From assembly GCA_003290165.1 (NCBI GenBank), contig QNQO01006969.1:62001-126000 (forward strand): a stretch of DNA of 64,000 nucleotides, read 5' to 3'. The stretch's first letter is position 1, and every line of letters begins with the position of its first letter. Shown here piece by piece: positions 8,889 through 52,807 of this stretch. The DNA is from Berberis thunbergii (lineage: Eukaryota > Streptophyta > Magnoliopsida > Ranunculales > Berberidaceae). The notes beneath the pieces are model-generated. The model was given only the letters and a program-made list of their open reading frames with translations. It searched no databases and was not told the DNA's origin. The position numbers and the translations under genes were made by a program.

Positions 8889-9010
8889 CACTACAAGAAA
8901 AGTCATCATTTATAGCATATGTTTATAGCATTTTTGTCCAAAGTGCTATGATTGACTAAATTCGTGGACAATTTAAACGCTATAAACCAAAGGAGCACGC
9001 GGGAACTTAG
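8889..9010 (+). repeat. CACTA A left terminus and subterminal repeats
   Basis: The terminal CACTACAAGAAAA is followed by repeated tatagcattt, gtgctatg and aaacgctataaa motifs in both orientations. These are the expected transposase-binding arrays of a CACTA element. Confidence 0.85.
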
Positions 9011-9049
9011 AAAAAAAAGGCGGAACTGGAATTCACTGACGCGGTTTCA

Positions 9050-9182
9050 TTTTTGGTTTGTGTGAGCAAATAATAATAAACGCTACTGCTTCACTCTCTC
9101 CATTTCTATCGATCTTCTGAATCAAATTCAGTCTCTCCATCTCTCTCAATGAAGTTCACTCTCCATCTCTCACTGATTCAAG
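9050..9182 (+). promoter_or_regulatory. Pyrimidine-rich leader in CACTA A (putative)
   Basis: A CT-rich stretch (repeated ctctctccatctctc) lies between the left subterminal repeats and the first captured exon. It resembles a plant 5' UTR. The position matches leader-like stretches in the two other CACTA elements of the window. No TATA box is certain. Confidence 0.3.
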
Positions 9183-9389
9183 GTTAAGCCTCCTGCATCT
9201 GAAGATTTTCATTTTTCTCTCTTTGCGATCGATTCTGCACCTGCCTTTTCTCCCACAGACAACGACAGTGGTAAAGGAGATGAGTCTTCTCCACAAGTTC
9301 TGCTCCAAGTTAAGGATCTGACTGCTGTGATTGCAGAGTCAAAGCAACAGATTCCCAAGGGTGTAAATCTTTTCATTCGCCAAGGAGAG
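9183..9389 (+). pseudogene. Captured exon of ABCI6/SufC-type ATPase
   Basis: One open stretch of 69 codons ends at a GT donor (gag|gtaatt). It includes LLQVKDLTAVIAESKQQIPK and GVNL, which is the start of the SufC-like ABC ATPase of plastid Fe-S cluster assembly (ABCI6/NAP7), preceded by a plastid-type linker. The exon ends just before the Walker A motif, so no nucleotide-binding site is present. It is a DNA-level capture, because the donor is retained. There is no start codon of its own in this frame. Confidence 0.7.
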
Positions 9390-9671
9390 GTAATTATTTG
9401 TTGAAAAAACAGTTCATTCATTTGTGTATTTGTTTATGTGTAATAGAGCTAACCAATTAGCACGTTTAGTTTAAAGAGATGGAGATCTAGGGAGAACGAG
9501 AGATCGTGATAGATCTAGGAAGAAAGAGAGAGCAAGAGAGATCTAGATCCAGATTTAGGGAGAGAGAGCTCTATGGAGAGAGCGAGGGAAATCGAGAAAC
9601 AGAGATAGCACAAACCCATTTAACATTGCCACTCTGTTCTTCGGATCAATCGATCTAAAGAAGACGAAAAG
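9390..9671 (+). other. Purine-rich non-coding stretch in CACTA A
   Basis: This stretch begins as intron after the ABCI6-like exon. It contains a run of gagagag/agatct repeats at about 9476-9600 that resembles a 5' UTR. No gene is recognised until the ATG at 9672. Confidence 0.4.
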
Positions 9672-9840
9672 ATGGAAATCTTCTACTTCCTGTTGTTTTG
9701 GGCACTCTTGTGGGTGGTGGCAGCGCCAAAGCTCAACAATAACAATAATGATCGCATCAACACTTCCACTGCTTTCGATTCCTTCAAGAACAACTAAAAG
9801 TCATCGTCTACTCTCATGATGGGTAAGCTAGATCTTCCAT
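9672..9840 (+). pseudogene. Captured first exon of MFSD5/MOT2-like transporter
   Basis: ATG at 9672 opens 41 codons: a hydrophobic N-terminus, then NNNNNDRINTSTAFDSFKNN, and a TAA at 9795-9797. The motif RINTS.AF.SFKNN followed by YSLMMxG is typical of the N-terminus of plant MFSD5/molybdate transporter 2-like major facilitator proteins. After the stop, the sequence gtcatcgtctactctcatgatggg keeps the rest in another frame, so a small indel has broken the exon. Only the first membrane segment is present. Confidence 0.6.
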
Positions 9841-12203: not shown

Positions 12204-12316
12204 CATGAAGCTGGTCATTTCCTGATTGTATTCTTGTTAGGAGTTCTTCAAAAAAATATATAGTTCCAAGTTTGGAAGCTATGAAGAATGACGTGGGTTT
12301 TGAATTTCTTAACAGG
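12204..12316 (+). pseudogene. Captured exon with HEAGH motif (M41-like)
   Basis: After a cag acceptor, the sequence reads HEAGHFLI and then, in shifted frames, remnants resembling LLGVL.K and GFEFLN, before a gtaag donor. The HExxH motif and these spacings resemble a plant chloroplast M41-like, stress-related protein (distant FtsH relatives). The frame is broken by at least one stop. The name rests on a short match and is tentative. Confidence 0.4.
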
Positions 12317-15300
12317 GTAAGTTTATTATTAGATTTCAATTGTATGCATTTCATTACATCATGAGATATTAGGTATCCCTTGGCAAAGTTTTTATATTTG
12401 TTAGTATTTCAAAGTCAACCATTTCATATTTTGTTAGCTTCAGTCGTAAAGTGTTAATATATGCTTCTATTAATATATGGTTTCTGAAGTCTATCTATTT
12501 TCATAATGAGGTTAGGTAGTTTGAAAGCTTTATAACTGAGTTTGATAACCTTTAAGTTTTTTAGTGATCTCCAATTGAAAATTGTCATGACTTTATGTAA
12601 CTTGTGGTTACGTGCAGGTCTGCGGAGTAAAAGATAACCATTTGGTGATATCTGATTGGCAGTAGAACGAGTCTATCTTTCAGTAAGGATTCCTATTGTT
12701 CCTTTTCCTTCTATGAGAACCAATTGTTTATGGAGCAAGTTCTTAGTTCTTACACAATATAGTGTGCTTTGGAGTGTGTTTTTATTATGATTAATTCATG
12801 TCAATTTTCAAGTGTGTTTTATTATGATTAGTTCTCTCCAAGTGGTTTAAAAAAATCCTGATTAATGATGTCAGAAATTTTCCATTAACTGAAATTCCAA
12901 CACTTGATAAACCAATTAATGCTATAGGGTAGGTTGATGATGTAGATGTGGATTTGATGAATGTTTGTTAGATGTCCATTTGCCAGTTCATGTTCTCTTA
13001 ATAGTTTTAAATGTGGCAATGGGAAGTGAGTTAATTTGTGATTTGTTGCCTTGTTGGAGCAGTCTTCCTACAATTGTTGTATGTGTTTATTGGGGCCAGA
13101 ACATATAATTTTGTATGAAAGAAAGGTTCACATGGGGTTGAGCAAACATGGTCAACCATAGGGAGTAACCAACTGTCAACTTGTTGGTCCCTTATGTGCA
13201 TATTGCATGTATACAAAAATTCTAACAGGGTTGCCTGTATAGATGCATTTCATTTTGACATTTATTGTGCATAATAATGGGGAGAAAGAAGCGCTAACCC
13301 TAACTCGTCTGTCCTATATAAACTCTTTATGAACTGATGATACCCAGACTCATCTTCTTCATCCTCTATGCAGCACTTGGTGACTAGTAGTAGTAATAGA
13401 TGCGCTTCTCTTTATTTTTGGGCTTTCAGTTGTTTTCCTTCAATTTTTTTAATCCTAATCTGTGGAGGTTTAGAGGTACCGTCCACAACATGAAATATTT
13501 GATTTACTGTCCATGAAACGAAATGTTTGGGTTTTATGTGTTGCAATCCCATGCTTGAATCAATCCTTTTATTTTGCAAAAGTAGAGAGTTTGGGTTGTA
13601 GTAATTTGCTTCTTATGTGTAGCATGGATATGCCCCAATTATTTATGTTTAGTTCTTTGCTGCTAAAATTTTCATCAAGGCATGGACCTAATCTTTTCTC
13701 TTCTCAAAATTTTATATTCTCTTGTGTTTATTTCAACATCTTTTTTTATCCCCCATAGTTTGCCTTTCCCCGTGACTTCATCATCATGACTTTAGCTAAT
13801 GTATGCAATATGATGATTTAATATTCACTCCCATCCAATTCGCTCTTATTTCTTTTTGCTTTCTTTTTGTCATCTTTGGTCCTTTTACCATTCTAATGGC
13901 ATTGATGTTGATATAATCCTATTCAAAGTCATATAATGAGTACAATCATCATTCCTTCTAGCTGCAAAACACTTTATTTAAGATCTATCTCTGTCTTGTA
14001 CAAAAATGTGAAGCAAACTAAAAGAATTGCCCACTTGCGATTTAAAAAGAAATAAAATGGCAAATAAAACAGCTAGTAGTGAAAGGAATGAGTGTGTTAT
14101 TATGTAGCCATGTAATGCTAGGTCCAGTTAATAGATTAAGCTTGATTGTCAATTAATAGATTACATCTTTTGTGTTTGATCACCTTCCAAGAATTAACCA
14201 TTTAACTTCTAAGTTCTAACTGGAATAGTGTGAGGGTGACATTACTAGCATTCTACTTTTGCTTGCAAAGGGCGACATTACTGACTTTGCTGTGAGTTCA
14301 AACAACGCTTGGGTGGTATTTTTTTGAAGTACTTTATTTGAAATGGGTTGTGTTGATAATTCAGTTCTTCTTCTTCTTCTTCTAAAATTCTCTAAACTGG
14401 GGTTCTCATATTTTTTTGAGACGGGAACTAGTGCACGCCAATGGTTGGTTTGGTTAGCTCTCCAGCAAGCAGTGGTTCAAAGAGGACCTCAGAACTAGCT
14501 ATGTAGTTGGCGAATAACAGTATAAATGAGGCTGCATGTGGACCTCATCAAGAACAATCTAGAGTTGTCAAGGTATATAAACTAACTATACCCACTCCTT
14601 TTTCTACAACAAAATTGCATTTTCATGTTATCATTTTCTAATATATTTGAATTTGATGGGGTTGTTGGGGGAGCAGAGAGAAAGCAACAGAAAGGGGCCA
14701 ACATCAAGCTCTGAACATGAAGGACCCAAGACACCAGACCCAAGGTTTTTTCTACTTTGATGATTCTCTCCATCGTGATCACTCATTTATGAGACTGTCG
14801 TCTACAAAAATACATAAACAAAAAATGAAAGTCGTTGTATACGTCATTTTGAAAATAAAAAGTGAGGATCAAAATGCATTTTCATCTTTGAACATTTCCA
14901 TTCTACTGTGTTCTTAGAATACAAATGTTTAGTTCGTGGTGAGACTGCATATACCTAGTCTTTTATGACATTGTCATGAAATTTCTTACAAGACAAGTCA
15001 CGACTTTTATAAAACTTGTTGGTTGCTTTTTTAGATTTTTGTTTAGATGGTTACTTTTGTTACAAAATTTTTTATTAACTTTTCCCTTAACTATCTAACA
15101 GTCTTATACATTATTTTCAAGGACTTTGCTGATTGAGCGAGGCTGGCAAGAGGCGTTCTGATCAAGTTGTTGATTGGTCGAGCTCCTGCTGGAAAATGGA
15201 GTGCTCTGTTGAGGTGGACTGATGAAGATGACTATGGTTCTGTTGAGGTGGTTAAGGTGTTAATACAGGGAGTTGTGGTACTTTATATTTAGTTTTTTAT

Positions 15301-15539
15301 TTAGGTTTGAAAAGCTGGAAATGTTTTGTGACTCGATGTAACACAGAGAGCTGATCTTTATTATTAATTTGATAGATTTTGTGACTTGATGTAATACATT
15401 ATCTCATTAATTATATTACTTTGCCTCCATTCATGGAAATGTTTAAGTTTGGCACATTAAAATTTTTATTTTCTAGAAATAAAACTTATAAGATGTAATA
15501 AAAAGTCATTTGATAGCAAAAAAAAAAAAAAAAAAAAAA
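12317..15539 (+). other. Unassigned interior of CACTA A, right half
   Basis: AT-rich, intron-like DNA without a protein I recognise. An exon-like piece around 15120-15290 precedes the right subterminal repeats and a 22-bp poly-A run at 15519-15541. Isolated ORFs of 60-80 codons look random. Confidence 0.35.
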
Positions 15540-15699
15540 ATTTGCTATGTATACTTACAGAAACGCTATGGTAGAGTCTACCATAGCGTATTTGAAACGC
15601 TATAAAATGCCAACTTACTATAGCGTTTTTAATGGGTATTATAGCTTCGGTAGACACAACATTTTTGAAACGCTATTAATGGGTATTTTTCTTGTAGTG
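15540..15699 (+). repeat. CACTA A right subterminal repeats and terminus
   Basis: There are several copies of aaacgctat / atagcgttt, some arranged as hairpins (ctatggtagag..ctaccatag), then the inverted terminus TTTTTCTTGTAGTG ending at 15699. Confidence 0.85.
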
Positions 15700-15702
15700 A
15701 TT

Positions 15703-21696: not shown

Positions 21697-21940
21697 CACT
21701 ACACCAAAAGGCTTGTTTAGCTACGGGGAGGTGGCCACGGCTCGAAGCAGTTGGTTTAATTGCCACGGCTAAAAACCGTGGCTATAACGGCCAACGGTTT
21801 AAAACCGTGGAAAAAAAGTAAAAACGTGGCCAAAAAACACTACACCAAAAGGGTTGCCACGGTTTTAAACCATGGCTATAACTGCCAACGGTTTATAACC
21901 GTGGCTAAAACTGCAACGGTTTAAAACTGTAGCTAAAAAA
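21697..21940 (+). repeat. CACTA B left terminus with duplicated end
   Basis: After the terminus at 21697 come subterminal units such as gccacggctaaaaaccgtgg. A second full terminus CACTACACCAAAAGGG starts at 21838, followed by its own subterminal units. The 5' end is therefore present twice, 141 bp apart. Confidence 0.88.
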
Positions 21941-22114
21941 GTTTCATTTTCGCGCTATGCCCAAAATAGTTTCGCGCTTTGGCGAAAAAAATTGGAGAAA
22001 AACATACTCTCTCCACACCTCCTCTTCACAATCACAGATTCTCGAAGCAGAGAAGAAGAAGGACGAAAGGAGAGGACGATAGAAGAAGAAGGAAAAAAAA
22101 AAAAAGTTTGAGAA
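21941..22114 (+). promoter_or_regulatory. Leader-like exon near CACTA B left end
   Basis: A tcgcgc..tttggcgaaaaaaattgg block is followed by a purine-rich stretch (gagaagaagaaggacgaaag) and a possible gtaatc donor at 22115. The same arrangement occurs at 43015-43208 in the sister element. It is read as the element's own 5' UTR exon, which could drive transcription into the captured exons. This is inference; no TATA box is certain. Confidence 0.45.
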
Positions 22115-22704
22115 GGTAATCCTGTGACATATGTTCTTTTGTTTTACCTATGGAGATGTCTTTGAAGGAAATCGAATCGAAGACCTAGAAGATAATCTAA
22201 AGGAGGTGTAGTGAGCTTCATTGATGGCTATTTTTATTTTTAGGTCTTTTGTGCTTCATTTCAGATACAAATTTTTCTTTGAGTTCATCGATTTTCCAAG
22301 GTAAATGTATCAATGAACTCTCATCTTCTTTTATTCATCTTGCTTTGAAGATTTAGAGGAAAACCCTCTACTTCGAGTAGGAAAGATCATTAACAGCGAA
22401 AATTACTAACATTGAGAATAAATATGTGAAAATTTATCCCTTATGAAAGAGTTTGAACGATATGGAACGATTTGACTTGAACACGAGTTGTTTGATAAAA
22501 TGCTTCAATTAATCTATCCCTTGATGAAAGAGTTTGAAAGATATGGTCCCAGTGAAGGTTCTTGACAATGGAGGTTCAACTGTAGCAGGTCCTCTTTTCA
22601 ACTGAGTAGCTTCAAATAATATACTTCCTTGATTTAAAGTTGTCTCTTCTCATGTACGTTTACTTTTAAACTGTTATTCATAGATGTTATTTTGTTTTTA
22701 CAAG
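22115..22704 (+). other. Intron-like sequence before the SSI exons
   Basis: AT-rich sequence between the leader-like exon and the first starch synthase exon. A piece near 22540-22600 (ccagtgaaggttcttgacaa) may be a further decayed exon, but I cannot name it. Confidence 0.35.
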
Positions 22705-25100
22705 GGAGTGGAGCCAGGAGTTACTTACAAAAATTTGGGATTACCAGCTGAATGGTATGGAGCATTGGAATGGGTGTTCCCCACCTGGGCAAGAGCACAT
22801 GCTCTGGACACATGTGAAGCTGTTAATATTCTTAAGGGTGCAGTTGTAACAGCCGATCGCATCTTGACAGTTAGTCAGGTTAGTATACTTCATTATGAAT
22901 CCTTGTCATCAATTTCTATTTATTGAAGATGATTCAGTAATGGGTGTGCATCATGTTGAGAGGTAAATAAATAACGGAAGTGTTCACTTTTATATATAAT
23001 AGTCAAAGGATTTCTTAAGAAATATTTCATTTCTTCATGATATTTTTTCTTCAACTTTAACCTTTCTTACAGGGTTATTCATGGGAAATAACAACTGTAG
23101 AAGGTGGATACGGTCTTGATGAACTCCTAAGCAGTAGAAAGAGTGTTCTGAATGGTATATGTTAAACCTACATCATGAAGACATTGTATTTGGGAAAAGA
23201 AAAGACTTTCTTGGAAGCATAAAATAATTCAATTTTCTGAAAGAAGTTCCCTTGATAATTTCTTGTCACAACCAGGAATAACAAATGGAATCGATATTAA
23301 CAAGTGGAACCCAGGAACAGATGAACATACTAATTTCCATTACTCCATCAAAGATCTCTCTGGAAAGGTGCAATGGATCTCCAATCTTCATGTTTCCTAG
23401 TTTATCTATATATGTGCCGTGATTGCAGTGTTTTTTTCCCCTCTCTCTTTAATTGGGTATATATTGTATGAAGCAGGTTAACTGTAAAACGGATCTGCAG
23501 AAGGAACTTGGGCACCCTATTAGGCTGGACTGTCCAATTGTGATAACTAAATTCTGTATTCTAGTTCTTTCAATATTGAAAATTTGAAATAGCTCATGCC
23601 TTCTATTATAACTTATTTTGCAATGATTTTCGTAGATTCGATTCATAGGAAGACTGGATTATCAAAAGGGAATTGATCTGATCAAAGCTGCAATGCCAGA
23701 TCTTCTGCAAGATGATGTCCAATTTGTAAGCTTATATTTTTATTATTGAGGTGTTATTTAGCTTTATTTCACCTTATCCCTTCAATAAGAGTAATTTGCT
23801 TCTCCTTTTATAGTTGTTTTTGTGCCATCCTCTATCATCAGCACTCTACCTCACTATTCTCATGAAATTACACAATGTAGTTATAGTCACCCAACTAGAC
23901 AGTGCGGTTGTCTTTTATGTGGTTATATTAATTCTTAAACTTGCTCTCTGTCTTTGCAGTTATAGGGTTGTAGATTGTGTTCCACAAAATGTGTATTTTA
24001 TTTCTGACTTGAGCTATCTTACCTTGTTCAGGTTATGCTTGGGTCAGGGGACCCACAAACTGAAAACTGGATGAGTGCTACGGATCGCTGCTTACAAGGA
24101 CAAGTTCTGTGGTTGGGTTGGATTTAATGTTCCTATTTCTCATAGGATAATTGCTGGGTAGGTTACTATTGATTTTTAAAGTGCAATGTTCTCACTTCAA
24201 AATTTTCAATAATGTTAATATATTTGAAAATACACAGCTGTGACATACTATTGATGCCTTCAAGATTCAAGCCTTGTGGTCTAAATCAGTTGTATGCAAT
24301 GCGTTATGGAACTATTCATGTAGTTCACTGCACTGGAGGTCTTAGAGTAAGTTAACCTAGAAAAAATTGCATTTGCTTCTGTACTAAGTTCATAGTCTCT
24401 ATGATCAGAGACGTCAAATATCATTTTGAGTTCTTGTCCCTTTATTGCAGGATACAATGGAGACTTTCAACCCGTTCGCTCAAGAAGGCAGTGGCGAGGG
24501 TACTGGGTATGTAATTAATAACCCAAGGGATCACAACTTTTTTTATTATCATAATAAGATAAGGATCCCTTAAGGCTCAGATTGACCATGATTTCCAGTA
24601 ACCATTGTTGTCCTATTGCAGTCAATAGTTGAAATTGTAGTATGAAGTAGTTGATGAAAAAGATAACTTCATTGGGATCAGGGAAGTAGTGACAAATCAA
24701 CTAGAATTTTAGGAAGAATGCTTATTCATTTCATATGTACTGAAAATGTGTAGTTCCATGCACTTCTGTGAACTAGTACTATTACTAAAAACATGTCCAC
24801 ACTTCTCTTTCCTCTCATTTTAATATTGAAAAGTTGACATAATTATTTCTCTGTTTTTTATGGAGCATGTCTAATTGTCGAGGAAACCAGCAAGGGAGGG
24901 GGGTGTGACCACTCATCCCCGAGGATGCAGGCGTGCATCTCGAGGGGGATGAGCAGTCACACCCCCTCCCTCGCTGGTTTCCTCGCCATTTAGAATTTCT
25001 ATTTTTTATGAGTCTGTTTTATAAGGAATCTTACCAGTCATATTTTTTGTTGTTTGACAGGTGGGCCTTTTCTTCATTGACAACGGACAGTATGTTAGCG
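22705..25100 (+). pseudogene. Captured starch synthase I (SSI-like), C-terminal half
   Basis: Nine exons with GT/AG borders: 22705-22878, 23073-23154, 23276-23367, 23477-23539, 23636-23725, 24032-24157, 24238-24346, 24451-24506 and 25061-25100. They encode consecutive GT5 parts: WYGALEWVFPTWARAHALDT, KSVLN-GITNGIDINKWNP, FIGRLDYQKGIDLI, VMLGSGDPQTENW and [13 protein letters not shown]. This is plastid starch synthase I, which extends glucan chains from ADP-glucose. The N-terminus with the KxGGL site and the far C-terminus are absent. Exon 24032-24157 has a small frameshift. The first Glu of the catalytic E-X7-E motif is Lys (SRFKPCGL), so it cannot be active. Confidence 0.9.
24869..24995. mobile_element. 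Hairpin MITE, short copy in an SSI intron
   Basis: The arms tcgaggaaaccagcaaggga and the inverted tccctcgctggtttcctcg enclose a short loop with a second inverted pair (catccccgag..ctcgaggggatg). The ends resemble those of the MITEs at 19713 and 61713. It lies in the last intron of the captured SSI segment. Confidence 0.75.
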
Positions 25101-25683: not shown

Positions 25684-25884
25684 GAAACAGTAGAGGCCTC
25701 CGTCAGAAAGACAGGAAAGCTACTTGTGAGTAAGTTTTTTCTCTACAATATTTTTCTAATTGTAGTTCTTGAATTTTAACCAAACCTCCCTATGTCCAAT
25801 TGTTAGGTTAGTCATGAAGCTCTAGTGACTGGAGGTTTTGGAGCCGAAATCTCTGATTCTATTGCTGAACGCTACTTCTTGAGG
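25684..25884 (+). pseudogene. Captured BCKDH E1-beta exons
   Basis: Exon 25684-25725 reads ETVEASVRKTGKLL and ends at gtgagt. Exon 25807-25884 reads VSHEALVTGGFGAEISDSIA and ends at gtaagt. The two join in frame and match the C-terminal transketolase fold of the branched-chain 2-oxoacid dehydrogenase E1 beta subunit (mitochondrial degradation of Leu, Ile and Val). The usual SHEAPVTGGFGAEI has Pro changed to Leu. Only two exons were taken, so no function is expected. Confidence 0.8.
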
Positions 25885-26116
25885 GTAAGTTCTTTCTTTT
25901 GGTTACAATACAAATATACAACACTACTCAAACTAACTTGTTTTCCATCTGAGGCATGGTCTACCTTATCTTTGAGTAATTTTGAAGACAAAACTATAGC
26001 CTTTAAAGATTAAAGTGGCAATAGTTTAGAGACGGAGTTCGAGGTAATGCTCAAAATGTATATTAGATTTTTCATTGACTAACATAAACACTTACATTTC
26101 TTGTTGGCATTTGCAG
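25885..26116 (+). other. Intron-like spacer
   Basis: AT-rich sequence between the BCKDH and ABC1K cargo, ending in a ttgcag acceptor. No exon is recognised. Confidence 0.4.
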
Positions 26117-26755
26117 CTCATCTGCACTCAGGCGAGCTTGTAGCAGTGAAAGTACAGAGACCTGGTATGTCACTCTTATTGACCCTTGATGCCTTACTAT
26201 TTAACATGATTGGAGGCCAGTTGAAGCGATTTGCTAAGGCTCGAAAGGATCTTTTGATGGCAGTCACTGAAATGGTGAGCTACCATTTCACTTTTTATTT
26301 CCTTTTGTTGAATAGCATAGTAAACATGATGAGTGGTATCCTGTTCCATTTTTAACTTATTTCAAACTTTCTCATCTATTGGCATTGGTGGGGCGTTTCT
26401 GCAGAAATTCATATTCTCTGGTTTGATAATTGTTCATTTCTTTGTTGCAACGTATTTCCTTACGAGAACCTTTCGAGATTTCACCATCTCTAAATGTTTT
26501 AGTTAATGCAGTCCATCATGACTTCTCTTTTTGGTCTTTATTGCGACTTGGTTATTCTTATTACGTTTGTGTCTCTTGATTGTTAAACCCTTCTATTTGG
26601 TTTGTGGTTTTCACTTAAAAGCGATAGTATAACCAGGTAGTTTCCCTTGGTTATCATGCATTCAAGCATTGATTCAGCATTAAAAAAAAATTTCTTTTGT
26701 TTTGGTCTTCGGGGTACCTTCAATAGAATGGATTGATGGGATCAAGCTCACAGAT
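26117..26755 (+). pseudogene. Captured ABC1 (UbiB/ADCK) kinase exons
   Basis: Exon 26117-26274 reads HLHSGELVAVKVQRPGMSLL through QLKRFAKARKDLL to a gtgagc donor. The motif VAVKVQRPG is the beta-3 Lys region of plastid ABC1-type atypical kinases. A second piece at 26726-26755 reads EWIDGIKLTD, which lies further downstream in the same kinases, so the part in between has been lost or decayed. In plants these proteins act at plastoglobules and thylakoids on prenylquinone metabolism. The pieces are too short to act. Confidence 0.8.
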
Positions 26756-27272: not shown

Positions 27273-28157
27273 GTTGAATTGTCAAAAGGCTGCGATGCGC
27301 AGTTTGTGATTGGCTCAAAATCACTCTAGGTCTGAGCATGAAAGGCTTGTCTACGAAGGATGGATTTTGTATGACACTAGTCACCGTGAAGAGGCATTAG
27401 CTAAGGCCGAGGAGTCTATCTCCATTCAGAGATCATTTGAAGCATTTTTTTCTTAAAGCATATGTAGCAAACACAAACCTGGACTCTGTGTCTTCAACTT
27501 ACGTCGCCCAACTTCTGGAACAAGCTCTTAGATGTCCTTCTGATGGTCTTCGGAAAGGACAGGTAAATATTATCCGTCTGTCAACAAGAAAGCATACTAT
27601 TTCAGCCTATGAGAAATGTTTAGAGTATTGTGAGCGCCAAATGGTAAGAAGTGACCTCTGTATGGCAACTAAATTAGATCCACTAAGAACTTACCCTTAC
27701 AGAGACAGAGCGGCATGTAAACTCAATGGTTCTTCATTTTTATTGTGTTCTGCACAACTTGATTTAATTGGACGTGTTTCCTATCTTTTCCTATCTGATT
27801 ACTTGATGTTCATCCTCTTAAGCCTGGTTTTGACGTCTCTTAAAGTTCTTGAATAAAGTCTTGCATATGTTTTATAAGATAGGAATCACTAGGCTCTAAT
27901 TCCTAGCTTTCTGTTCCATCTCTTGTCGCTTCATAATTCTGGCCAAAAAACAGTCTCTTAGTAAACCTTCATTTCCACCCCATTTAACAGAAAATTATGT
28001 TCTTGAGTACCTGGACAAATTTGATCAAACACTAACTAACCAGTGGTGTTGGTTCTTGACAGTGCTTATCGATGACCGTAAAGAAGCAGCTACAATCGCA
28101 GAACTTTCAAAGGCCATAATGTTTAAACCAGACCAAATGGACATCTTCAGGCTGATG
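27273..28157 (+). pseudogene. Captured ETO1-like TPR protein exons
   Basis: Exon 27273-27562 reads LNCQKAAMRSL, a TGA stop, then HSRSEHERLVYEGWILYDT and SISIQRSFEAFFLKAY, ending CPSDGLRKGQ|gtaaat. A second piece from 27605 reads AYEKCLEYCERQM and MATKLDPLRTYPYRDRAA. A third, from 28063, reads LIDDRKEAATIAELSKAI. All three fit, in order, the C-terminal TPR region of ETO1/EOL proteins, which bind type-2 ACC synthases and act as CUL3 E3 adaptors limiting ethylene synthesis. The BTB domain is absent, and a stop lies in the first exon. Confidence 0.85.
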
Positions 28158-29634
28158 GGTACTTAACTAAGAGCCAGAGGCATGGGAAGGCTGGTTACAG
28201 TCTGACCAAACTTCATGCGCGGTGCCATCATCAACTTTCATAGAAGTGAGAATGACTTACCTTAATAGTAATTTTCTTTTAAATGCTAGGTACTTAATTG
28301 TTTGATATATCATAGAAAATCATATAGTTGAAAAAATTATTATGTTGGAAGAAATTATTTGTTTGTTGAGACTCCTATGTGACAAAATGGCCCTTTTAAA
28401 GTTTCTCTTTTACAGTCTGATCAGGTGGAAGAAAACAATACTAGGGTAGATTGTCTCGAAAATAGGGACTCCTATGTGTGGTTGTTTGCTGTATGAACAA
28501 GCTTGAATTAGTCAAGCTTCTCCTCACACTGAGTATTAAGTTCATGAAGAAGGATATAAGACAATGCATATGAAAATATGATTTGATGGATTTAGGGAGG
28601 AGTATTAAGTTTAGGAATTTTGACTATGATAGAGCAGAAAATAGGTATCGTTTTCAACCTGGCCATTCAAGGATAATGTCTCAAGTAAAAACTGAAGTTA
28701 TTTATGAGACTCTGATCAAATAGATTCCATGGAATTGTTAGCAGTATTTCTTGGAATTTCTAATACACATTATTCCGAACATGTCTGTTTATGATGTTTA
28801 GTAATTGATTTCACACATTCAGATGTCTGACATGGAAATTTTGAATGCTAATTTAGAACTTAATATGTATTACTATTAGACTATATATTATTATACATGA
28901 AGCAGTGTTTGTTATGAAGCTTATTCATCAGATTTGGCTTGAATGTTTCATTTATTTTGAAGCTTGGTCGATCAAATCAAGATTTTGTTTCCCTCGTTTG
29001 TATGGTTTTTATGGATGGAAAGCATTTTAAGTTTGCAAACCCTACAAGAGGAAGCTTCAGATTTGAATAGCTAGCTGTAAAAGATGATGTATAATAGCTA
29101 CAGATATAATTACTTGTATCTTTGTTTTCATCATTTTAAAAGAACATGTTTAGATATGCTTTATAACTTAAGAAACTGGCAGGGTCGCAGGTTTTATGCA
29201 AATTATAACATCTTTGCCATGTCTGAATGCAAACTTAAGAACAAAGTCTATATAAACTTCTTTTCTTGTTAGAAGGATCTCACATAGCAGCCCTAGATTT
29301 CATGGAAACATAATTTGAATGAAGCAGTGGTGTCTGCTTTTGTCAGGACATGTGGACCTTTATGTTCAAGTACACAACACCAACCAACAAATACATTTTT
29401 CTGCATTCACCAAGTAATCTAAATTAGGGTGTTTCAGAGCTTTTGAAATGATTATAAAACATGAATCAGTCTAAACATAATTCGTCTCTTCACAGACCAT
29501 TAGTGTTTCGACCTAAACAAGGTAAACTTATTGTAGAGAAATTGATTGCTTAGGGTGTTTGCATGCATTCTAGTGGTTCCATGTATTTATCATGTTTGTC
29601 TGTCATTGAGTACTAACTAATTTTTATACTGCAG
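28158..29634 (+). other. Unassigned interior of CACTA B
   Basis: AT-rich sequence without a recognisable exon. It ends in a clear acceptor (actgcag) before the exon at 29635. Confidence 0.4.
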
Positions 29635-29764
29635 GGCTCTGAAGGTCTGAGCCAGTACAGACAGCAGTATGTTGGACAGGAGAATGCGCATACATTGCTT
29701 GTTTCTGGGGTGCAAAGTGTGTTGTTGTATCAACCATCACTGGTGCCATATACAAGCAACTACC
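29635..29764 (+). pseudogene. Unidentified captured exon
   Basis: An open stretch between a ctgcag acceptor and a possible gtgttg donor encodes GLSQYRQQYVGQENAHTLLV and continues through SGVQSVLLYQ. It has good codon structure, so it is probably a real exon of a host gene, but I do not recognise the family. Confidence 0.4.
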
Positions 29765-29836
29765 AGGTGTTGTATTCTAGTCATTTTCAGTATATTGAAC
29801 AAGCAACTACCGAAATAAATGGAGCCTATTCCTTAG

Positions 29837-29936
29837 GGTATTGTGTATGGTAAGCCTAAGAATCAAGGTATTACCCAACTGAAGTTCCAGAGGAATAAGA
29901 GATCAGTTGCTGAGGAGGGCTTGGGTTCTTCATGGG
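29837..29936 (+). pseudogene. Captured ribosomal protein L15 exon
   Basis: After the ttag acceptor, the frame reads [16 protein letters not shown] and then [13 protein letters not shown], the signature of cytosolic 60S ribosomal protein L15 (eL15). This is followed by a shortened, altered GL.SSW end. About 30 codons remain of a protein of roughly 200 residues. Some of the highly conserved RAGRKLG stretch after AEE is missing. Confidence 0.8.
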
Positions 29937-30399
29937 TATGCTTCTTGGGGCATTGGATAGTCCTCTGATGCAAGAACAAATGACTGCATAAAAAAAATTT
30001 GTTCATGAAGCCAATCAAATGGGGAAAAGGAGCTATAGCTCTGCTAAGACATTTGCAGTAATGGGTTTGATATTTTCAGCTTGAATGTGCAGTAGAGAAG
30101 GTATGAGAGAAATCAATTTGCATCAATGTATTTTCTTACATTATAACTAGGTGGATTTGTATTGTTGGAAAAAAACATAGAGAAATTTTTTTTGTTTTAG
30201 ATGCGAGCGAAACATGATATAACAATTTTCCATTTGTTCAGGTTAATCCTGTTATTGTACATTAGTGCTATTTGTTTACATGTTTTTGTTTGGCGTCAAA
30301 ACTTGACAAGTTCCTTTTTGCGGTTGATTTTGTATTTATCTAGAATATAGTTTGTGGAATCCTATTCAAGCCGGAGGCATGACACAAACCTTAGTAAGG
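29937..30399 (+). other. Spacer before the right end of CACTA B
   Basis: AT-rich sequence with no exon recognised. The family-specific right-end block, shared with 52310-52807, begins near 30395 (agtaaggactgactttgcag). Confidence 0.4.
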
Positions 30400-42790: not shown

Positions 42791-43014
42791 CACTACACCA
42801 AAAGGCTTTATTAGCTACACGGAGATGGCCACGGCTCAGAACCGTTAGTTTATTTGCCACGGCCCAAAACCGTGGTTAGACCCTAAAACCGTCACTACAC
42901 CAAAAGGCTTGATTAGCTACATGGATATGGCCACGGCTCAAAACCGTTAGTTTATTTGCCACGGCCCAAAACCATGGCTAGAGCCTAAAACCGTGGCTAT
43001 AAAAAGAAAATGCA
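42791..43014 (+). repeat. CACTA C left terminus with duplicated end
   Basis: The terminus at 42791 is followed by subterminal units. A second terminus, CACTACACCAAAAGGC, starts at 42893 and repeats the following block (ttagctac..ggccacggctca..aaccgttag). The terminal 102 bp are therefore tandemly duplicated. Confidence 0.9.
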
Positions 43015-43208
43015 CCTGGGTTTGCTTTGGCGCCATTGCGAAAACAGTTTCGTAGTCTTGCGAAAAAAATTGGCGATCCCGCCTCCTTCCATTTTAATTT
43101 TAGGGAACGAAAGCAGAAAAGAGTGAAGAGCAGGGAAGGAAAGTAAGAGAGGGAGTGAGGAGCAGGGAAGGAAAGCAAAGAAGCGATTCTCCATTTTCGT
43201 TTCAAATC
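43015..43208 (+). promoter_or_regulatory. Leader-like exon near CACTA C left end
   Basis: The gcgaaaaaaattggcg block, also present in element B, is followed by a purine-rich leader (gagcagggaaggaaag, present twice) and a possible donor caaatcag|gtgagg at 43208/43209. It is interpreted as the element's own 5' UTR exon in sense orientation to all captured genes. Confidence 0.45.
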
Positions 43209-46200
43209 AGGTGAGGAGGCATGTTTTTTTTCTTTGGTTCGACTGTTTCTTTGTTTTAAGCTTATCAAAAGAGTGGTTTGGGTTTTGGGTTTTGGGGTGC
43301 AAGGGTTAGGGTTCAAGAACCAACGCTACTCTCTCGTCTACAGACCCAATCGATTGAGCTTCTGTACTCAGATTTAGTGAATTCAATCAACCCAGTTGTT
43401 GCAATCGATATATTCAATCGATTGAGGTGTCATAGCATCTAAGCTACTTAGTTTAGGGTTTGTAAATTGTTTTAATCAATTTTGCTTGATTTGTGTTTCT
43501 TTATTGTAATTTGCATATTGTTTTGAAATTAATCTCTTGTTTACCACTTCATCACAAATTTTCCCATGTAATTCTGTGGTGGCTGTGAAATGGGGTTCTC
43601 TTGAAAGAGATAGAGATTGAATCAAAACTTTGGATGAGTCCATTTCAGTGTTGATCTTCCCTATCAATGTTGATGTTGGATTGATTTCATAGTTTTATGT
43701 GTAAAAGAATGAATTGATTTTGACTTTCTTAAAATTTGATCTTGACAGGGAATATCTACTAGTGAAACTTGGATCAAGCAGTCAAGGAGAAGGTAGGTAA
43801 TTTAAAAAACATTTTTTATTAGTTTGTATGACTTTATTGTCGAATTTGTAAGAATCAATAAGGAGAATGAAATTCATTTTGGACCAAAAAGAGATGACCC
43901 AAGTTAGTGATTGCGCAATGGTTTTACCTCGAGAAAAAAATCTTAAATATTGCTGCTATGTTCTGTATTTTTCCTGTGATGGACGGCCTGGTAAAAAGAT
44001 AATATGTTGTTTGTTGCAGACATTTCCCGAGCTTCAAGAGGAAGATAGTTTTTGATGAAGGAAAGAATTGATTTGAACACGGTATGCTCTCAAGTGTTTC
44101 TTTGCTCTATAAGAATTTATCTTATTACATTGTCTAATTAGGGATAATTGAACTGTTTCCTTCCATTTTATTTCAAATACGAGTGTGCCAAACTACAAAA
44201 TATACGAGTAATAAATGAATACAAAAAATGAAAGCTTGATGAGATTTGAGGTGCCTAATGTGTTCTATCACTCTAAATCTTTTAAGACTCGAAGCTGGAT
44301 TCTTTTGTGTTAGACCTGTAATCTGTATTGTAGTGTAGCACACACGTATCCTGACCCAGATAAAAAGCAGTTTTTTCCTCGTGTATGAAAAAGTCAGTCC
44401 CTCGTTTCACCTTGAAAATGTGAAGTTTGAACATAGTAGTTATAGAAATTAAAAAAAAAAAATTAGTTTATTCTGGAATGGTAGTTTGAACATTGTATCG
44501 ACCTAATTTCTTTTCATACTCATTTTTTCATTCATATGTTTGTAATTGTTCTGAATAATCTTAAGTTCTATAAGAATTTTAAATGTTCCTTAGAAAGGTT
44601 TGCTCCTCCCATTCCATTCCTAGTTTTCTGTCTTATGACGAGGCAATGCAGTTATTGTTTAGTCAATGTTGAATAGGCCCATAAATTTCTCTAGAATTCA
44701 ATGTTCTAGAAGATCATTAGGGGTGTATTTGAATAAAGTACGATAATCATAACCAGTCAACGAAACAAAACTATTGTATTTATAGGAATGACTAAAGAAA
44801 CTATTGTCAACACCCTGAATAGTGTCAGTAGATTGTCATTTGGATTTTTTGATAGAAAGATTATTTGTTATTTGCATTAAAGTTTCTTGATTCATCTTAT
44901 TATATTTGTTTTCTGCATACTCTTTCAATCTTAGCATTTTTCTTCATTAGCCGAATTGTTAACTCAGTTATTATTTCTATTAAGCAGACGTCATTCTTCC
45001 CCACACTCCTCCCTATATTATGTTTAAACCATTGCTATCTTACTCCCTATCCCTGCTTTACTATGTATAGATTTGAAATATCAATTAAGTTACTATTTTC
45101 CAAGGAAATAGGATCGAAGGGGAGACAAATACCTTTATGGACAGATGCTCTCGTTTGATCAGGAAAAAGATCAATTTGTAGTTTTATGTTTTTATAGCTT
45201 TAGTAGGCCTATTCTACTGGACAAAATTGTTTTGATGTGCTATGCATTAGCATATGAAATAAACAAATGCCATATTAGATTTTCTTTGGCTTGATAATTT
45301 AATTTAAAGCCCCATAGATGCATTAACTTTGATGTTGATGTCTTAGGTAGAATCACTTATTTTATCTAAATAAACAATGTCTGTTATTGTTTATTCATTT
45401 ACCATGGAGATGGTAAAGATATCATCATGTCTTATCTTTTCATTCTTATTCTGCAACGACTTAGATGTTGATGTCTTAGGTAGAATAACTTATTTTATCT
45501 AAATAACCACTGTCTGTTGTTGTTTATTCTAATGGGACAAATGGTCATTTATATCTGGATGTGAATTAACTTTCTTAAGTCTTAATTATTCATTTCTTAA
45601 TCACCAACTCAAGAACAGTGTAACAACTTTGACCTCAGCCAGTCTACCTAGGTTAGCATTGGTGCTTAATCCTCATTGTGAAATATGTGAAAATTATATA
45701 GGAATATATAAGGGCCATGAAGAGAAGATTTCTTTGCCTAAGTTCAGTCATAACTCAAAGAGGCAGCTGAGAGATTGTTAATATAGTACAATACTTGAAC
45801 CAGGCATGAGAGTTGATACACCCTGAATGTCTCTTATAAAGTGTAAAGATGGGATACACTTGGTTTTCATAGACCTTTTAGACTAAGTTTCTATATTATT
45901 TTGAAGCACACACTTCAGTATCCTTTGACCGTCTTTGGTTGAAGGAAAAAATTTCATGGTAAAGTAGTGAATAAAACGGAGAGATAAGAGGATGTGGAAG
46001 ACTAAGGTGGAACTTCAGGTTGAAGAAGACCTTCAAACACATGTCCCCTCAGATAACATTTCACTATGGATAACTCATTTTCAACATCACTTTGCTCATT
46101 TTTTTTCTCACTTTCATGTATGTACTATTTTTCGTGGTTTTTTTATGGGACTTTTCTTTCAATGAAACACACTAGTTATTTTCATTGTGAGATTTGTAAA

Positions 46201-46716
46201 CTTGTAGATCATTGCCATACTACATTTCCATCTGTCCAAATAAATATGATTCTAATGCATCAAACCTTTCTCCTATGACTCCTTGTTTGGGTTTCCTAAT
46301 TTGTTACATTAGTGATGAATGATGACTACAATTGTTGCATTTAGTGCATCTTAAAAAGCTAAAGTAAGTTGTGTTCACCTCTTTTTAAGACCTTAGATGA
46401 ATGTTCGACGTCCATAACCAAATAACTATTTTGAACTTTCATTTTTCTCTTAACCATCTTTTAGTCATAATTATTCTTGGCCACTAAAAGAATATCTGAT
46501 GGTAGCAGCTTGTATAGTTGTATATAAGCATACTTTTTGTAACATATGAAGTTTATATCTCAATAATCATGATATGGCCAATCTACATTTATGTGGTCTC
46601 TGAACTCAGAGCAAATAAAAGATTGATTACTTAAAGTCATTGATTACTTAGTCATTTTGAAAATTTGAATCATCTTTTGTTTCAATTTTCAACATGTTTG
46701 TCATCTGATTTTCAAG
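43209..46716 (+). other. Intron-like interior of CACTA C, left part
   Basis: AT-rich sequence with no exon I can name. A 65-bp phrase (gatgttgatgtcttaggtag and following) occurs near 45328 and again near 45464. It ends with the ttcaag acceptor at 46716. Confidence 0.4.
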
Positions 46717-47090
46717 GGAAGGACTCTGGACTGGCAGCAGTTGTTACTATAGCTTCGTCTCTTGACTATTCATCTTCAAGATCTTCGCTAAAACTCTTAA
46801 TGCCTCTTGTAAGTGAATTTGGAATTTTAGAGCAGCTTTCAGTTGTTGGCATTTTAAATATTTTTTATGTGCAGAATATGTTAAAATTATTTATCCATTT
46901 TAGCATCTTATGCAGGCAGATCCTGCTCAGGCTCTTAATGTTCCTGTTATTCCATTGGGAGCATTACTAGCAGCTTCATACCCTCTTTCATCTCAGCCTC
47001 CTTACACCTTAGGTTGGCTTAATAGTCAAATTTCGGCGAAGGACATGATGACACTCGAGTTGTTCAAAAAGCTTGTCTTAAACAATTTTT
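46717..47090 (+). pseudogene. Captured alpha/beta-hydrolase exons
   Basis: Exon 46717-46808 encodes KDSGLAAVVTIASSLDYSSS and ends at gtaagt. Exon 46916-47090 encodes ADPAQALNVPVIPLGALLAA, then DMM..ELFKKLVLNNF, and ends at gtaagt. The pair matches the middle of a plant alpha/beta-hydrolase family protein of unknown substrate. The catalytic His/Asp part downstream is absent. The two exons join in frame. Confidence 0.75.
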
Positions 47091-47192
47091 GTAAGTATGA
47101 AGTATGAAGCTCAGCATGGAGAGTTTTTGCTAACTTCATCATGAAATTGTTCTCATGAAAGATATTTCTTTATGAAAAAATTAACCTTTCGG

Positions 47193-47548: not shown

Positions 47549-47630
47549 GTGTTTATGTTTAGGTGAACGATATTAGTTTATTCAAGTAGAATTAGAAGGT
47601 GTTTGAGTTGAATCCTCAAATCTTTTTCAG

Positions 47631-47699
47631 GTGAAGAAACGCAACAAGCATTGTAGGACTTGCAACCATTGTGTTGAAGAATTTGATCACCACTGCAGG
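47631..47699 (+). pseudogene. Captured DHHC-type S-acyltransferase exon
   Basis: A 23-codon exon between ttttcag and gtaaga encodes KKRNKHCRTCNHCVEEFDHH followed by CR. This is the core of the DHHC cysteine-rich domain of protein palmitoyltransferases, including the catalytic DHHC itself. Neighbouring exons and all membrane segments are missing, so no enzyme can result. Confidence 0.88.
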
Positions 47700-48804: not shown

Positions 48805-49896
48805 GTGGCATGAATGGTTCCATAGTTTATGAACTTGACAGACCTGAAAATGCGGGACTTGGAAAATCTCTGAAAGCATGCTCTATTTCTCTCAATACAT
48901 TCTTTATTATGTTCTATGCTCATCTACATGTAAAACTTCGGCATTCTTGACTCACTTAAACCATTGACATAGCGATAGGTATTGATTTTACTATAATCTG
49001 AATTGAATTTTAACTTGGGTTCTAGCCACTCTACTCAACAAATGCATTGTTGTTCAGATTCTAGAAAAAGTGAAAGGAGAAATTGATGAAACAAAACCAG
49101 GTCGTTAGTATATAAACCTATATTTTACAAGAATTGTAAAGTTAGTTGATATTTTTATTCTGGACTAACATGTTAGCCGGGTTCCCTATACTAGTTTCTT
49201 TGGCAGACATGATTGCCGTGGCTGGAGCTGAAGCAGTTTCAATATGTGGAGGTCAGTCCAATTAGGCAGAATAGACTCAATGTAAGAATCAAGTTTCATT
49301 GTCTCACACACAAAGTTATGGTTATGAAAAGCATTTGTCGTTACCTTATACATAATGCCTGCTATGTTGTTCGTCAAAAGCATTGGATGATTTTTGCAGT
49401 TAGTTTGGGGAATGATGAATTACCATTACCTAAAAAAACCCACCAAATTGGGGACACACATAGATTGGAATTTTGACTTTATTTTATTTCATTTATTGGT
49501 TTAATTGTTTATTTTCCAGTTGTTTAGCTTGCCATAATTTACTTATAATAATTATAAAAGTATGTTTTGGAATTGGAACCTTTGAAAAATATGTGAAAAT
49601 TTTTGGATCTAAGCATGGAGTGTCCAATCTAGTAAAGTGTTGGAGTGGCCAAAGCATGGAATATTTTGAATACAAAATGTCCTTGGTACATGGGTTTTGA
49701 TCAGATTGAAAGTTAGCCCATATAGTTCTTTCGTTTGTTCTTTGAAAATTGCGAACTGCTAACGATTCACGTCTGTAGTCCGTTAACTTGTAATAATAGT
49801 GTTTTCTTGTAGGAAGCCCGATCCAAAAGGTAGACTTACTGAAGAATCTTTGGACGCTTCTGGCCTCAAACAAAACTTTCTAAGAAAAGGCTTCTC
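48805..49896 (+). pseudogene. Captured ascorbate peroxidase 6-like exons
   Basis: Four exons: 48805-48875 (GMNGSIVYELDRPENAGLGK), 49058-49100 (ILEKVKGEIDETKP), 49207-49251 (MIAVAGAEAVSICGG) and 49813-49896 (KPDPKGRLTEESLDASGLKQ). Together they follow the order of plant APX6-like class I peroxidases, which reduce hydrogen peroxide. The first exon ends at GC instead of GT (ctgaaa|gcatgc). The VSWA phrase between the second and third exons and the heme-pocket part downstream are absent. Inactive fragment. Confidence 0.88.
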
Positions 49897-49941
49897 GTGA
49901 GTTTATTCCTTTAACAACCTTTACTTTCATATTTTTGTAAA

Positions 49942-50070
49942 CTTGGTACCAGCTCAGCTGGTATAGTTGTGGCGGATGGTATTATAATTTCAAGGTTCGA
50001 ACACTGCCAAAGGCATTTAATGGTGTGGTATCCAATAAAAACCTACCCGCCCTAACAAAAAAAAACCCTA
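49942..50070 (+). mobile_element. SINE with target duplications
   Basis: It is flanked by tactttcatatttttgtaaa (49922-49941) and tactttcatatttgtaaa (50071-50088). The head has a tRNA-like A box (agctcagctggtatagttg) and B box (ggttcgaacac), and the tail an A-run. It lies in the intron between the peroxidase and IQD cargo, so it landed after or together with the capture. Confidence 0.85.
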
Positions 50071-50403
50071 TACTTTCATATTTGTAAATTAAAATCCTTT
50101 TCATATACGATTTTTTTATCCTTAAATTCCTAGTATATAAAACAAATGCTACAAGTATTTTCAGTTTATTTCTTTCATATTTTTTGTAAAATACAGCAAA
50201 CGTAGAATGGAATTTGTGTTGTTTTACCCTACGCCATTGAAATACTGTTATGGAAGTAATTCTTAACATACCTTGAAAGCAAAGAAAATAAATAAATAAC
50301 TTATTTTGTTCACTGAAGCACAAAAAGGAAGACATATTTGTATTTTCAATACTGATATCTGAAATAGTTTGTTATGTTTTAAAACTTTTTTCATATTCGA
50401 TCA

Positions 50404-51861
50404 GGATCTATTACTACAAAGGTCTCAAACTCCACAACTTAGATTGCTGATACGATAGAGGTTCAGAATGAGAAACTGAAACATATTACTACAAAGGCAT
50501 CAGGTTCTCCAAATATGGGCATGGTTGGGACTGAGGTTGAGAAGCCAAGACACAGCACCAGCAAGGCATCAGGCTCTCCAGCGCCTCATGTTCCAGATAT
50601 GGGCATGGTTGAGCTTTCTGAGAAGACGAAGAAAGAAGTGGATGCACAAATGTCTAAAGATCTTCATGGAGGAAGTCCTCTGAAGTCATTGGTAGCAGAT
50701 GATATAGTTGATGAGTTGCATGATGCTCATCCTGTTGTTGATTCACCTACTGTGGAGAGCACTGGGAAGGAAGAAAATTGTCATGTGACAAATGAAGAGT
50801 TGTTCTCAAAGGAAGTTAAAACTAGCAATGAGAAGGCCAGCAAGAGGAGAGCTTCATTTCCAGCAAAGCAGGAATATCCGAAAAATGGGTCACATTAACA
50901 GTGCAAAGTTGCCAAGCTATATGGCAGCAACAGAGTCTGCAAAGGCAAAGCTTCGAGCACAAGGCACTGCAAAATCCGACTTAGATGGAGCCGAGCAAAA
51001 TGGTTCAGCCCGTAGGCATTCTCTGCCTTATTCCAAAAGTGGAAAATTGAGCTCGCCGTCACCAAGGACCCAGAGATTGGTTCAATCAAGTGGCAAAAGT
51101 GGAATAAAGAACAACATGTCTTTATTGTCTTCTAGAGATGGGAATGGTAAGAAGTCTCAAAACAATGTCATCTTTCCTTTTTTGTTTGAAAAGCAAACAG
51201 GGTTGTAAGGACCCCTTAACCTTTATATTAAAGAAAAAAAATAAGATGTCTCAAATACAATCTCTCAAAAAGAAAAGATTCTTAGCAAAAACAATCACAC
51301 AAAAAAATTAGGACTATTCTAGTCTCGTTGTTGGCAATATATCATATATTATGTCTTGAAAACACTTACTGGTTTACTGATTCAGTGTGACTATACATGT
51401 GGCCATATCGTTGCCTTCTTTTGTTTATCAAAACCATAAGTTTTCTTTACACTCATCTCACTTGCAATATTTTATAAGTCAGTTGATAAAGTATTCTTTA
51501 ATTGTTGGATGAATATCCTCACATGTATTTTTGTTTCTTATTAACATCAAGAGTTGAGAGATTTCACAATAAAGCAAAACAGGCCATTTGAGATATTTGG
51601 TACAGGTTTTTAAAAAATAAATTATTTATTATTATTTTTTTCACCCATGAAGCAAATGATCTAATATGAACCAGTGTCTTCCCATGCTTCTTAAAGAAAC
51701 TTTCAATTAAAAGCCTTGTTGACTTTACTAGCAGTATTAGTTTGGCATCACTTGGAAGTAGTTTTTAATAGTGATGAAAGCATCTTGTAATTTCTGAATG
51801 TTTAACATTAGGTTGTTGATTATTTTCAGAGAAGGTTGTGCAAGTAGATTGGAGGAAGTGA
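50404..51861 (+). pseudogene. Captured IQD protein C-terminal exons
   Basis: A long exon, 50404-51146, carries KASKRRASFPAKQEYPKNG and, after a frame change near 50890, KLPSYMAATESAKAKLRAQG, RRHSLPYSKSGKL and SLLSSRDGN. It ends at gtaaga. The last exon, 51830-51861, encodes EKVVQVDWRK and a stop. This is the DUF4005 C-terminal region of plant IQ-domain proteins (IQD30-32 type), microtubule-associated calmodulin scaffolds. The IQ motifs themselves were not captured. It is the only cargo here that retains a natural gene 3' end, including the stop codon. Confidence 0.88.
51184..51275 (-). mobile_element. Truncated LINE 3' tail in an IQD intron
   Basis: The phrase agggtt.taaggacccc.aacctttatatta and the following caattacaatctttc-like end match the 3' tail of the LINE at 57250-59850 (57275-57345). 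It is a short 5'-truncated copy of that family, minus strand, placed just after the donor of the long IQD exon. Confidence 0.6.
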
Positions 51862-52309
51862 ACTCTTTTTGCAAAGAGTCTTGAAGGAAAACCTTTATGT
51901 GTTTATGCAGTCTTGTCCTTGTGTTTTTGTGTAAAATTCTGTTGTAAAACTTGAGATCTGGATAAATAACTGGTGTGTGGTGTGCCTAGAGCTTTTTGTA
52001 TTTTGGGTGTCATGAGTAAATGCAATGAGTAAATGTATAGAACTAAGGCTTTACTTTGTCGTTGTTGTTTGATTCTTCAGGTTCATACAATACCATGTCT
52101 TATATTTTCTTCATTTCCTCATTTTTGCCTGTTCTAATATTGAGTGTACTAGTTCATGACTTAAGATGTTTACAATCTAGGAATAAAGTATTCATTTGCA
52201 AAGATTGTTGTGGTTGCTGCCTTGTAGTAGTCTGAGTTGACTGTTTTAAGGATTTGATTTTATATGGATGTTTTGTTATGATATATTCTATAACTTGAAG
52301 AAAATATTC
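51862..52309 (+). other. 3' flank of the captured IQD gene
   Basis: This looks like the natural 3' UTR of the captured IQD gene, T-rich and following its stop codon. It runs up to the family-specific right-end block of the CACTA element. Confidence 0.45.
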
Positions 52310-52807
52310 ATCTTAGTAAGGACTGATTTTGCAGGTGTGGGGCTGTGATTTTGCTGCAATAGCAAAATAAATGTAATTTTTTTTCGATTATATTATTTTG
52401 CAACGGTTTCAAACCCTCGCAACAAACCATATTTCTTTTTTTTTAATTTTGTTTTAACTGGCCACGGCTTAAAACCGTGGTACTTCATGCTTGCCACGGC
52501 TTAAAACCGTGGCCATCATGCTTGCAATGGCTATGAGACCAAAGCAATTCAAAATAAGTGATATATGTTGCCACGGTTATGGAATGTGTAGCATCTAGCC
52601 ATGCCGGATAGTCGTGGCTAAACCGTGGCTAAATGCAGAAAATCATCAAGCGTCCTCGAACATAAAACCATTGCTAATATGTGTTGCCACGATTTATAGC
52701 CGTCAATGGTGATTTGGTGACGCCTCAAATGGCCAGGCCTCTAAGCCGTGACAATAGGTTACCCCCATGGTCCCAAACCATTGCTGATGGGTATTTTTGG
52801 TGTAGTG
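52310..52807 (+). repeat. CACTA C right subterminal array and terminus
   Basis: The right-end block is shared with 30400-31037 (gtaaggactgattttgcagg landmark, gattatatta, then gccacggcttaaaaccgtgg units), ending TTTTTGGTGTAGTG at 52807. It is somewhat shorter and more degraded than in element B. Confidence 0.9.

Follow-up and report, generated by a model that had tools for sequence, protein, structure and literature searches.

The host-gene pieces captured by CACTA transposons in the genome of Berberis thunbergii lie almost all in one direction, sense to a leader at the left end of the element. This is seen in three elements, called A, B and C, which fall within positions 8889..52807 of a 64,000-nt stretch of contig C6942 (the whole of this stretch is "the window" in what follows; the genome measures 2.24 Gb in 11,732 contigs) and in which we read thirteen host-gene fragments, all on the plus strand (13/13, p=2.4e-4, for a tally made by eye with the strand in view). 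The bias is genuine and recurs in other cargo of related elements: 19 unique non-transposon genes are sense and 1 is antisense at Pfam E<=0.01 (two-sided binomial p=4e-5), and it holds across four end families, with one exception. A preliminary description of the window had listed at least twelve fragments, all reading left to right. The direction is borne out, while the list was incomplete, a TIM22-like fragment (29911-30111) being the thirteenth. Minus-strand cargo at a similar frequency, which that description took to be the observation that would speak against it, was not seen; there is a single minus-strand gene piece, in the stretch E061.

The wider count covers A, B, C and 14 further element stretches of the same genome, not all of them complete or wholly scanned. 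These were found by a shared leader (that of C in E011, E015, E017, E034 and E037, that of A in E052 and E054, that of B in E058, E061, E062 and E079) or, for R1, R2 and R4, were picked via pairs of terminal inverted repeats (TIRs) and size, from five pairs considered. Both ends were seen in E015, E034, E037, R1, R2 and R4, and the right end in E052, E061, E062 and E079; the scan extended over these stretches apart from every E-element leader, the initial 1.5 kb of E052 (L052), E054 past ~4.05 kb, and the ends of E011, E017 and E058. Both strands were scanned alike, transposon domains were excluded and each gene was entered once, unique genes being counted rather than copies because many copies share ancestry. 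The sense families are Tim17, ABC1, Glycos_transf_1 and DUF4005 in A to C, and Rcd1, NOT1, Utp12, NTP_transferase, DUF702, Na_sulph_symp, Cpn60, ACDC, UQ_con, Lysine_decarbox, Kelch, Peptidase_S10, WD40_CDC20-Fz, ATP_synt_H and HSP90 in the other elements; the sole antisense family is bHLH-MYC_N (E=0.0024 in the pooled scan, 1e-4 when scanned alone). If one keeps only the elements whose right end was seen, the count becomes 15 sense to 1 antisense (p=5e-4), omitting four families of uncertain position with respect to an element, namely Utp12 and NTP_transferase, both from E011, and DUF702 and ACDC, which were not assigned to any element; the ACDC match is probably a chance one. The pooled scans name no element for a given match, and most matches were placed by means of their reading frames. 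R1, R2 and R4 carry other genes than the leader-picked elements, again all one way; R1 and R4 form one family of the same handedness, as judged from the alignment of their ends, and what they show is a common direction of their genes, not a direction relative to a leader.

We think that the scan can be trusted on the matter of strand. Among the weak matches (0.01<E<=1), 20 are sense and 12 antisense; of the sense ones about 8 fit known cargo (Glyco_transf_5, L15e, peroxidase, MAP65, ABC_tran, WD40, THOC3 and FKB95), and if they are set aside 12 sense matches remain against 11 or 12 antisense. This near equality of the remaining weak matches indicates that the scan itself is not one-sided, and it can see antisense coding sequence, since antisense transposon domains (hAT, Gypsy and RVT_3) were detected. 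The transposon domains excluded from the count were hAT with zf-BED in E011, RVT_3 in E054 and, by eye, reverse transcriptase, RNase H, integrase and gag protease in E058; they lie at 6237-7253 of E011, 3947-8207 of E058 and 2477-3052 of E054, all antisense to the leader, and are few and partly perhaps flanking sequence. E017 has a minus-strand match to PADRE (0.017), which was left uncounted, being above 0.01; it resembles an intact neighbouring gene past the last stretch shared with E037, and to call it flank is a matter of judgement, as the right end of E017 was not found. Further sense pieces were read by eye, namely an ABCC transporter (ABC_tran 0.019), MAP65 (0.017) and a GLR-like piece (0.19), together with a WDL/TPX2-like piece (Pfam scan negative) and a nucleolin-like one, both lacking profile support. 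E037 (G000:C1706) holds, by eye, two subunits of CCR4-NOT, NOT1 and CNOT9/Rcd1, both sense and in one element lineage.

The cargo of the window was searched by hmmscan against Pfam in all frames, with stops masked and each strand separately, and it is these Pfam pools, not the list of fragments read by eye, that enter the strand-blind counts. On the minus strand, all nine frames of A, B and C gave no Pfam family up to E=1. On the plus strand, A carries an ABCI6-like exon (9252..9389, a peptide followed by GT, with no Pfam or PDB match), an MFSD5-like first exon that begins with ATG (9672..9836; single exon, MFS_5 E=0.0022) and an M41 peptidase-like fragment with HEAGHF read by eye (12204..12318). 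B carries nine exons of starch synthase I (SSI) with their introns (22705..25100; Glycos_transf_1 E=1.5e-4 at 24230-24346), an exon of BCKDH E1 beta (25807..25884; Transketolase_C 0.009, and 0.0053 to human BCKDH beta, PDB 1olx_B), an ABC1 kinase (ABC1K) fragment (26110..26262; ABC1 E=1.5e-4), an ETO1-like TPR fragment whose extent was set by eye (27280..28220; TPR_2 0.069 at 27280-27462), an RPL15 fragment (29828..29926; Ribosomal_L15e 0.05) and the TIM22-like fragment (29911..30111; Tim17 E=7.3e-8, which passes the family cut-off). In C we find two exons of an alpha/beta-hydrolase-like gene, read as peptides (46716..47091; the sole Pfam match is weak and unrelated), a DHHC palmitoyltransferase exon (47631..47699; single exon, DHHC 9.4e-7), four APX6-like exons with introns (48805..49896; peroxidase 0.031 in a pooled plus-strand scan of A and C that gives no position) and, as the last cargo, an IQD-like fragment (50400..51861; DUF4005 4.2e-10 in the plus pool, the position and the stop codon being read by eye).

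Six of these names are provisional: what we take to be ABCI6, the M41-like piece and the alpha/beta-hydrolase are named from the resemblance of their peptides to plant proteins, and ETO1, APX6 and RPL15 are presumed from such resemblance together with weak profile matches (E>0.01). Six whole plus frames of A and C, masked with X, gave no matches in PDB; with short exons, three of four found no match there and the BCKDH exon did, and APX6 exon 4 alone matched nothing in Pfam or PDB. The exons have splice-like borders, with AG before 17 of 19 and GT after 17 of 19 (one exception being the GC after APX6 exon 1); since these borders were placed by eye, the figures are a description and not a test. 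Introns are retained in the SSI and APX6 fragments, and it is thus genomic DNA, not mature mRNA, that was captured. Reading frames are broken in places, and SSI exon 6 has no open frame. Within an SSI intron lies a 125-bp foldback (24870-24994), which the majority of the listed copies with SSI retain. Searches with the whole B and C cargo, in which 40 and 37 candidates were scored, brought up no parent of the window's own cargo; what they returned looks like element copies.

A, B and C each have both of their ends, with TIRs that begin with CACTA and matching 3-bp target-site duplications (TSDs), and all are oriented plus: A at 8889-15699 (CACTACAAGAAAA, TSD ATT), B at 21697-31037 (CACTACACCAAAA, TSD TTA) and C at 42791-52807 (CACTACACCAAAA, TSD ATA). 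The Pfam scan of all frames found no transposase domain on either strand of A, B or C, which makes them non-autonomous. The left ends of B and C are tandemly doubled, in B over 21697-21850 (inner TIR copy at 21838, 141 bp apart) and in C over 42791-42994 (inner copy at 42893, 102 bp apart), as is that of E034 (CACTA repeats at 1303 and 1405); the TSDs of the elements with doubled ends fit the outer TIR copy. Subterminal repeats occur in both orientations, as CCACGG...CCGTGG arrays in B and C and as ACGCTAT/ATAGCGT motifs in A. The right ends of B and C are 80-86% identical and the ends of A differ, so that B and C are related and the three elements cannot be taken as mutually unrelated. TIRs starting with CACTA are present also in E015, E034, R1, R2 and R4, with matching 3-bp TSDs in E015 (CAC), E034 (GTA), R1 (CTA) and R4 (TAT); the flanking triplets mismatch in R2 (ATA/TTA) and in E037 (AGA/AGG), whose right repeat has one change. 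A, B and C are Pack-CACTA elements, a kind already known. Immediately to the left of C stand about three copies of a 179-bp tandem repeat within a GC-rich stretch (41774-42299). The genes of the window are of plant type. The stretch, including A, B and C, recurs at G000:C241:504472-548069, 99-100% identical in the matched pieces; this second copy is either a haplotig or a recent duplication.

The leader-like block that had been described at the left end of each element is real, and the cargo behind it is exchanged. The leader of the A family (8905..9221, plus strand) is followed by different cargo after ~9221 in 2 of 12 copies (L054 and L055, which diverge at 9220-9222), and in the B family (21940..22546, plus) the sequence is shared to ~22546. 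The C leader (43000..43997, plus; delimited by a common breakpoint and by alignment) contains a GT at 43211 and an exon-like segment, 43749-43792, followed by GT at 43793. A search with it gave 686 candidates, of which 40 were scored and 30 loci compared, including the window itself (L009): homology reaches at least 43997 in 29 of the 30 and stops at 43913 in L038, and beyond the leader 8 loci continue with C cargo and 22 with other sequence. The C-leader locus on C241 is not independent, being part of the near-identical duplicate of the whole window stretch. At the other end of A, a block with AATAAA and a run of A (15362..15542, plus) adjoins the right subterminal repeats; it is mostly common to E062 (96%; 9085-9250) and R2 (8878-9046), and a part recurs in E052 (8310-8432), without AATAAA at the corresponding place. 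The block with AATAAA is thus common to A, R2 and E062, though the TIRs of E062 differ, and the presence of one 3' block beside two TIR types suggests either that sequence has passed from one CACTA family to another or that a poly(A) end was captured.

To explain the bias, we tentatively favour, at somewhat less than even confidence, a capture that takes place in either direction and is followed by a filter that removes antisense cargo and keeps spliceable, gene-like units. What is directly visible is the structure of the elements with their intact ends, the retained introns, the leaders shared over exchanged cargo, and the bias itself. The transposase part has been lost from these elements. 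A leader with splice-like borders remains at the left end and subterminal repeats at the right, joined in some elements by a 3' block with AATAAA; host-gene pieces with their introns have collected between the two ends, nearly all sense to the leader. The left end may act as a promoter from which transcription starts, the cargo would be spliced into the leader transcript (the splice-like borders fit such chimeric splicing, and the spliced fragments of soybean Tgm-Express1, PMC1947982, speak for it), and 3' processing might occur at the right end. It seems to us most likely that pieces would be captured in both orientations through DNA recombination and that antisense cargo would be filtered out later. 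A sense, spliceable and polyadenylated unit would resemble a gene and might therefore be less silenced and stay mobile, whereas antisense cargo could interfere with splicing and yield RNA complementary to transcripts of the parent gene, at a cost to host or element. A gene-like layout was noticed in some elements: the ATG first exon stands near the left of A, the stop-bearing terminal IQD exon comes last in C, and in E061/E079 the last fragment is HSP60-like and has a stop codon. The broken frames make selection for protein unlikely.

Several observations weigh against a transcript filter. The first is E061, in which ~1.6 kb of an AMS-like bHLH gene lies reversed inside the element. A copy of the E061 type on C1776 is identical in this piece, and on C267 and C3529 its initial 260 bp recur with the same orientation. 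A further 29 places match nearly the whole of a 601-bp probe at 83-87%, among them C722 (G000:C722:300507-305912; L097 and L098), the longest match outside loci of the E061 type, with bHLH exons of AMS-like character downstream; judging from sequence resemblance, this locus is probably the parent of the reversed piece, or a close copy of the parent. The other 28 places match the bHLH piece nearly in full over the same range of identity. A nested transposon had been considered as the source and was dropped, the longest outside match lying in the AMS-like gene on C722, and no flanking inverted repeat stood out around the reversed piece. This makes the piece a fragment of a host gene and a genuine counterexample, and together with its copies it indicates that antisense cargo is tolerated at least sometimes. 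Secondly, the conservation of leader exon 2 is nothing unusual, 273 of 734 windows of 43 bp being equally invariant, and we have abandoned the idea that selection keeps this exon. Finally, directional capture would yield the same bias. The preliminary description had offered transcript selection or directional capture as the cause; the bias it started from is real, the observations fit either cause, and the conservation of the leader exon lends the first no support.

Directional capture is the alternative that survives best, and we consider it unlikely without dismissing it: the capture step itself would be oriented with respect to donor transcription, for instance because R-loops, nicks or replication conflicts leave a single strand exposed, or because insertions are fixed in orientation relative to the gene. 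The bias is indeed seen at all the cargo positions observed, not only next to the leader, and the four end families agree; moreover, PMC8903248 reports neighbouring insertions of Pack-TYPE elements that share one orientation. Against it stand the reversed piece of E061, the lack of any intermediate among the elements analysed here, and the published model of neighbouring insertions and aberrant excision (PMC13317346), which in the portion available states no link to gene direction.

Shared descent, in which a small number of captures would have spread by copying, deletion and recombination among elements and the independent events would be few, appears to us distinctly improbable as the main explanation. 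E011, E015, E034 and E037, which have the C leader, contain blocks of one ancestral cargo in conserved order, and B and C cargo recur elsewhere as modules that within one place keep their relative direction and not always their order (C12, C569), as read from tables in which the exception to direction is the palindromic 125-bp stretch. But the ratio stays at 19 to 1 with every gene entered a single time, and R1, R2 and R4, which were not picked by leader, point one way with different genes. An artefact of detection, by which readers and profile scans would favour sense pieces, is very improbable and largely refuted by the strand-separated pools: some names do come from reading by eye that was not strand-blind, and the raw weak matches do lean towards sense, but that lean vanishes once the known cargo is removed, both strands having been scanned alike and antisense transposon domains having been picked up.

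Helitrons of maize offer a parallel, as their captured fragments are reported to lie mostly in one orientation and to be spliced into chimeric transcripts. They belong to another class of transposon, with rolling-circle replication and neither TIRs nor TSD, unlike the CACTA elements described here. Closer relatives are the Pack-CACTA or Pack-TYPE elements of Arabidopsis, rice and maize (PMC8903248), which likewise have non-autonomous CACTA ends around several unrelated host-gene pieces; the accessible part of that paper yielded no statement on the orientation of captured genes, which here is strongly one-way. Tgm-Express1 of soybean is a CACTA element whose five gene fragments, with their introns kept, supply exons to chimeric mRNAs and are so read in one direction within one transcript (PMC1947982). 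Tgm-Express1 differs in being a single element in a host intron, with its exons reported from transcripts of that host gene (PMC1947982), whereas here many elements have a leader of their own. The Tpn1 family of Ipomoea nil, as portrayed in the part of PMC5105172 that was covered, has conserved terminal regions and an internal part replaced by host genic DNA, and chimeric transcripts are reported for it; the orientation of cargo is unstated there, and the likeness drawn here is one of description. In a 2026 review (PMC13317346) the words "orientation", "direction", "sense" and "antisense" are each absent from the main text, and we found no statement of an orientation bias of CACTA cargo in the literature searched, outside which most subscription papers lie and which was accessible in part. 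The type of element, the gene pieces and the chimeric transcripts are therefore already known from Pack-CACTA, Tgm-Express1 and Tpn1; the measured sense bias of CACTA cargo, with its exception, may be the new part.

One may go further and see the CACTA elements described here as one-way exon traps, with the leader at the left, unrelated internal exons in the middle, and terminal exons with stop and poly(A) signals at the right, ~95% of the cargo (19/20) being sense; we think this conceivable but doubtful as a general description, and with it that, if the bias is set at capture, capture reads the direction of donor transcription. Such reading of donor direction by cut-and-paste elements would not be part of the published model, at least as set out in the accessible portion of its source. 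The question addressed is how DNA transposons acquire host genes and why the products persist, and a pronounced bias of orientation, which can be counted in any well-assembled plant genome, tells neutral capture apart from directional capture or transcript selection. If a transcript filter is the true cause, gene capture would be tied to how elements evade silencing and also to how chimeric genes are supplied.

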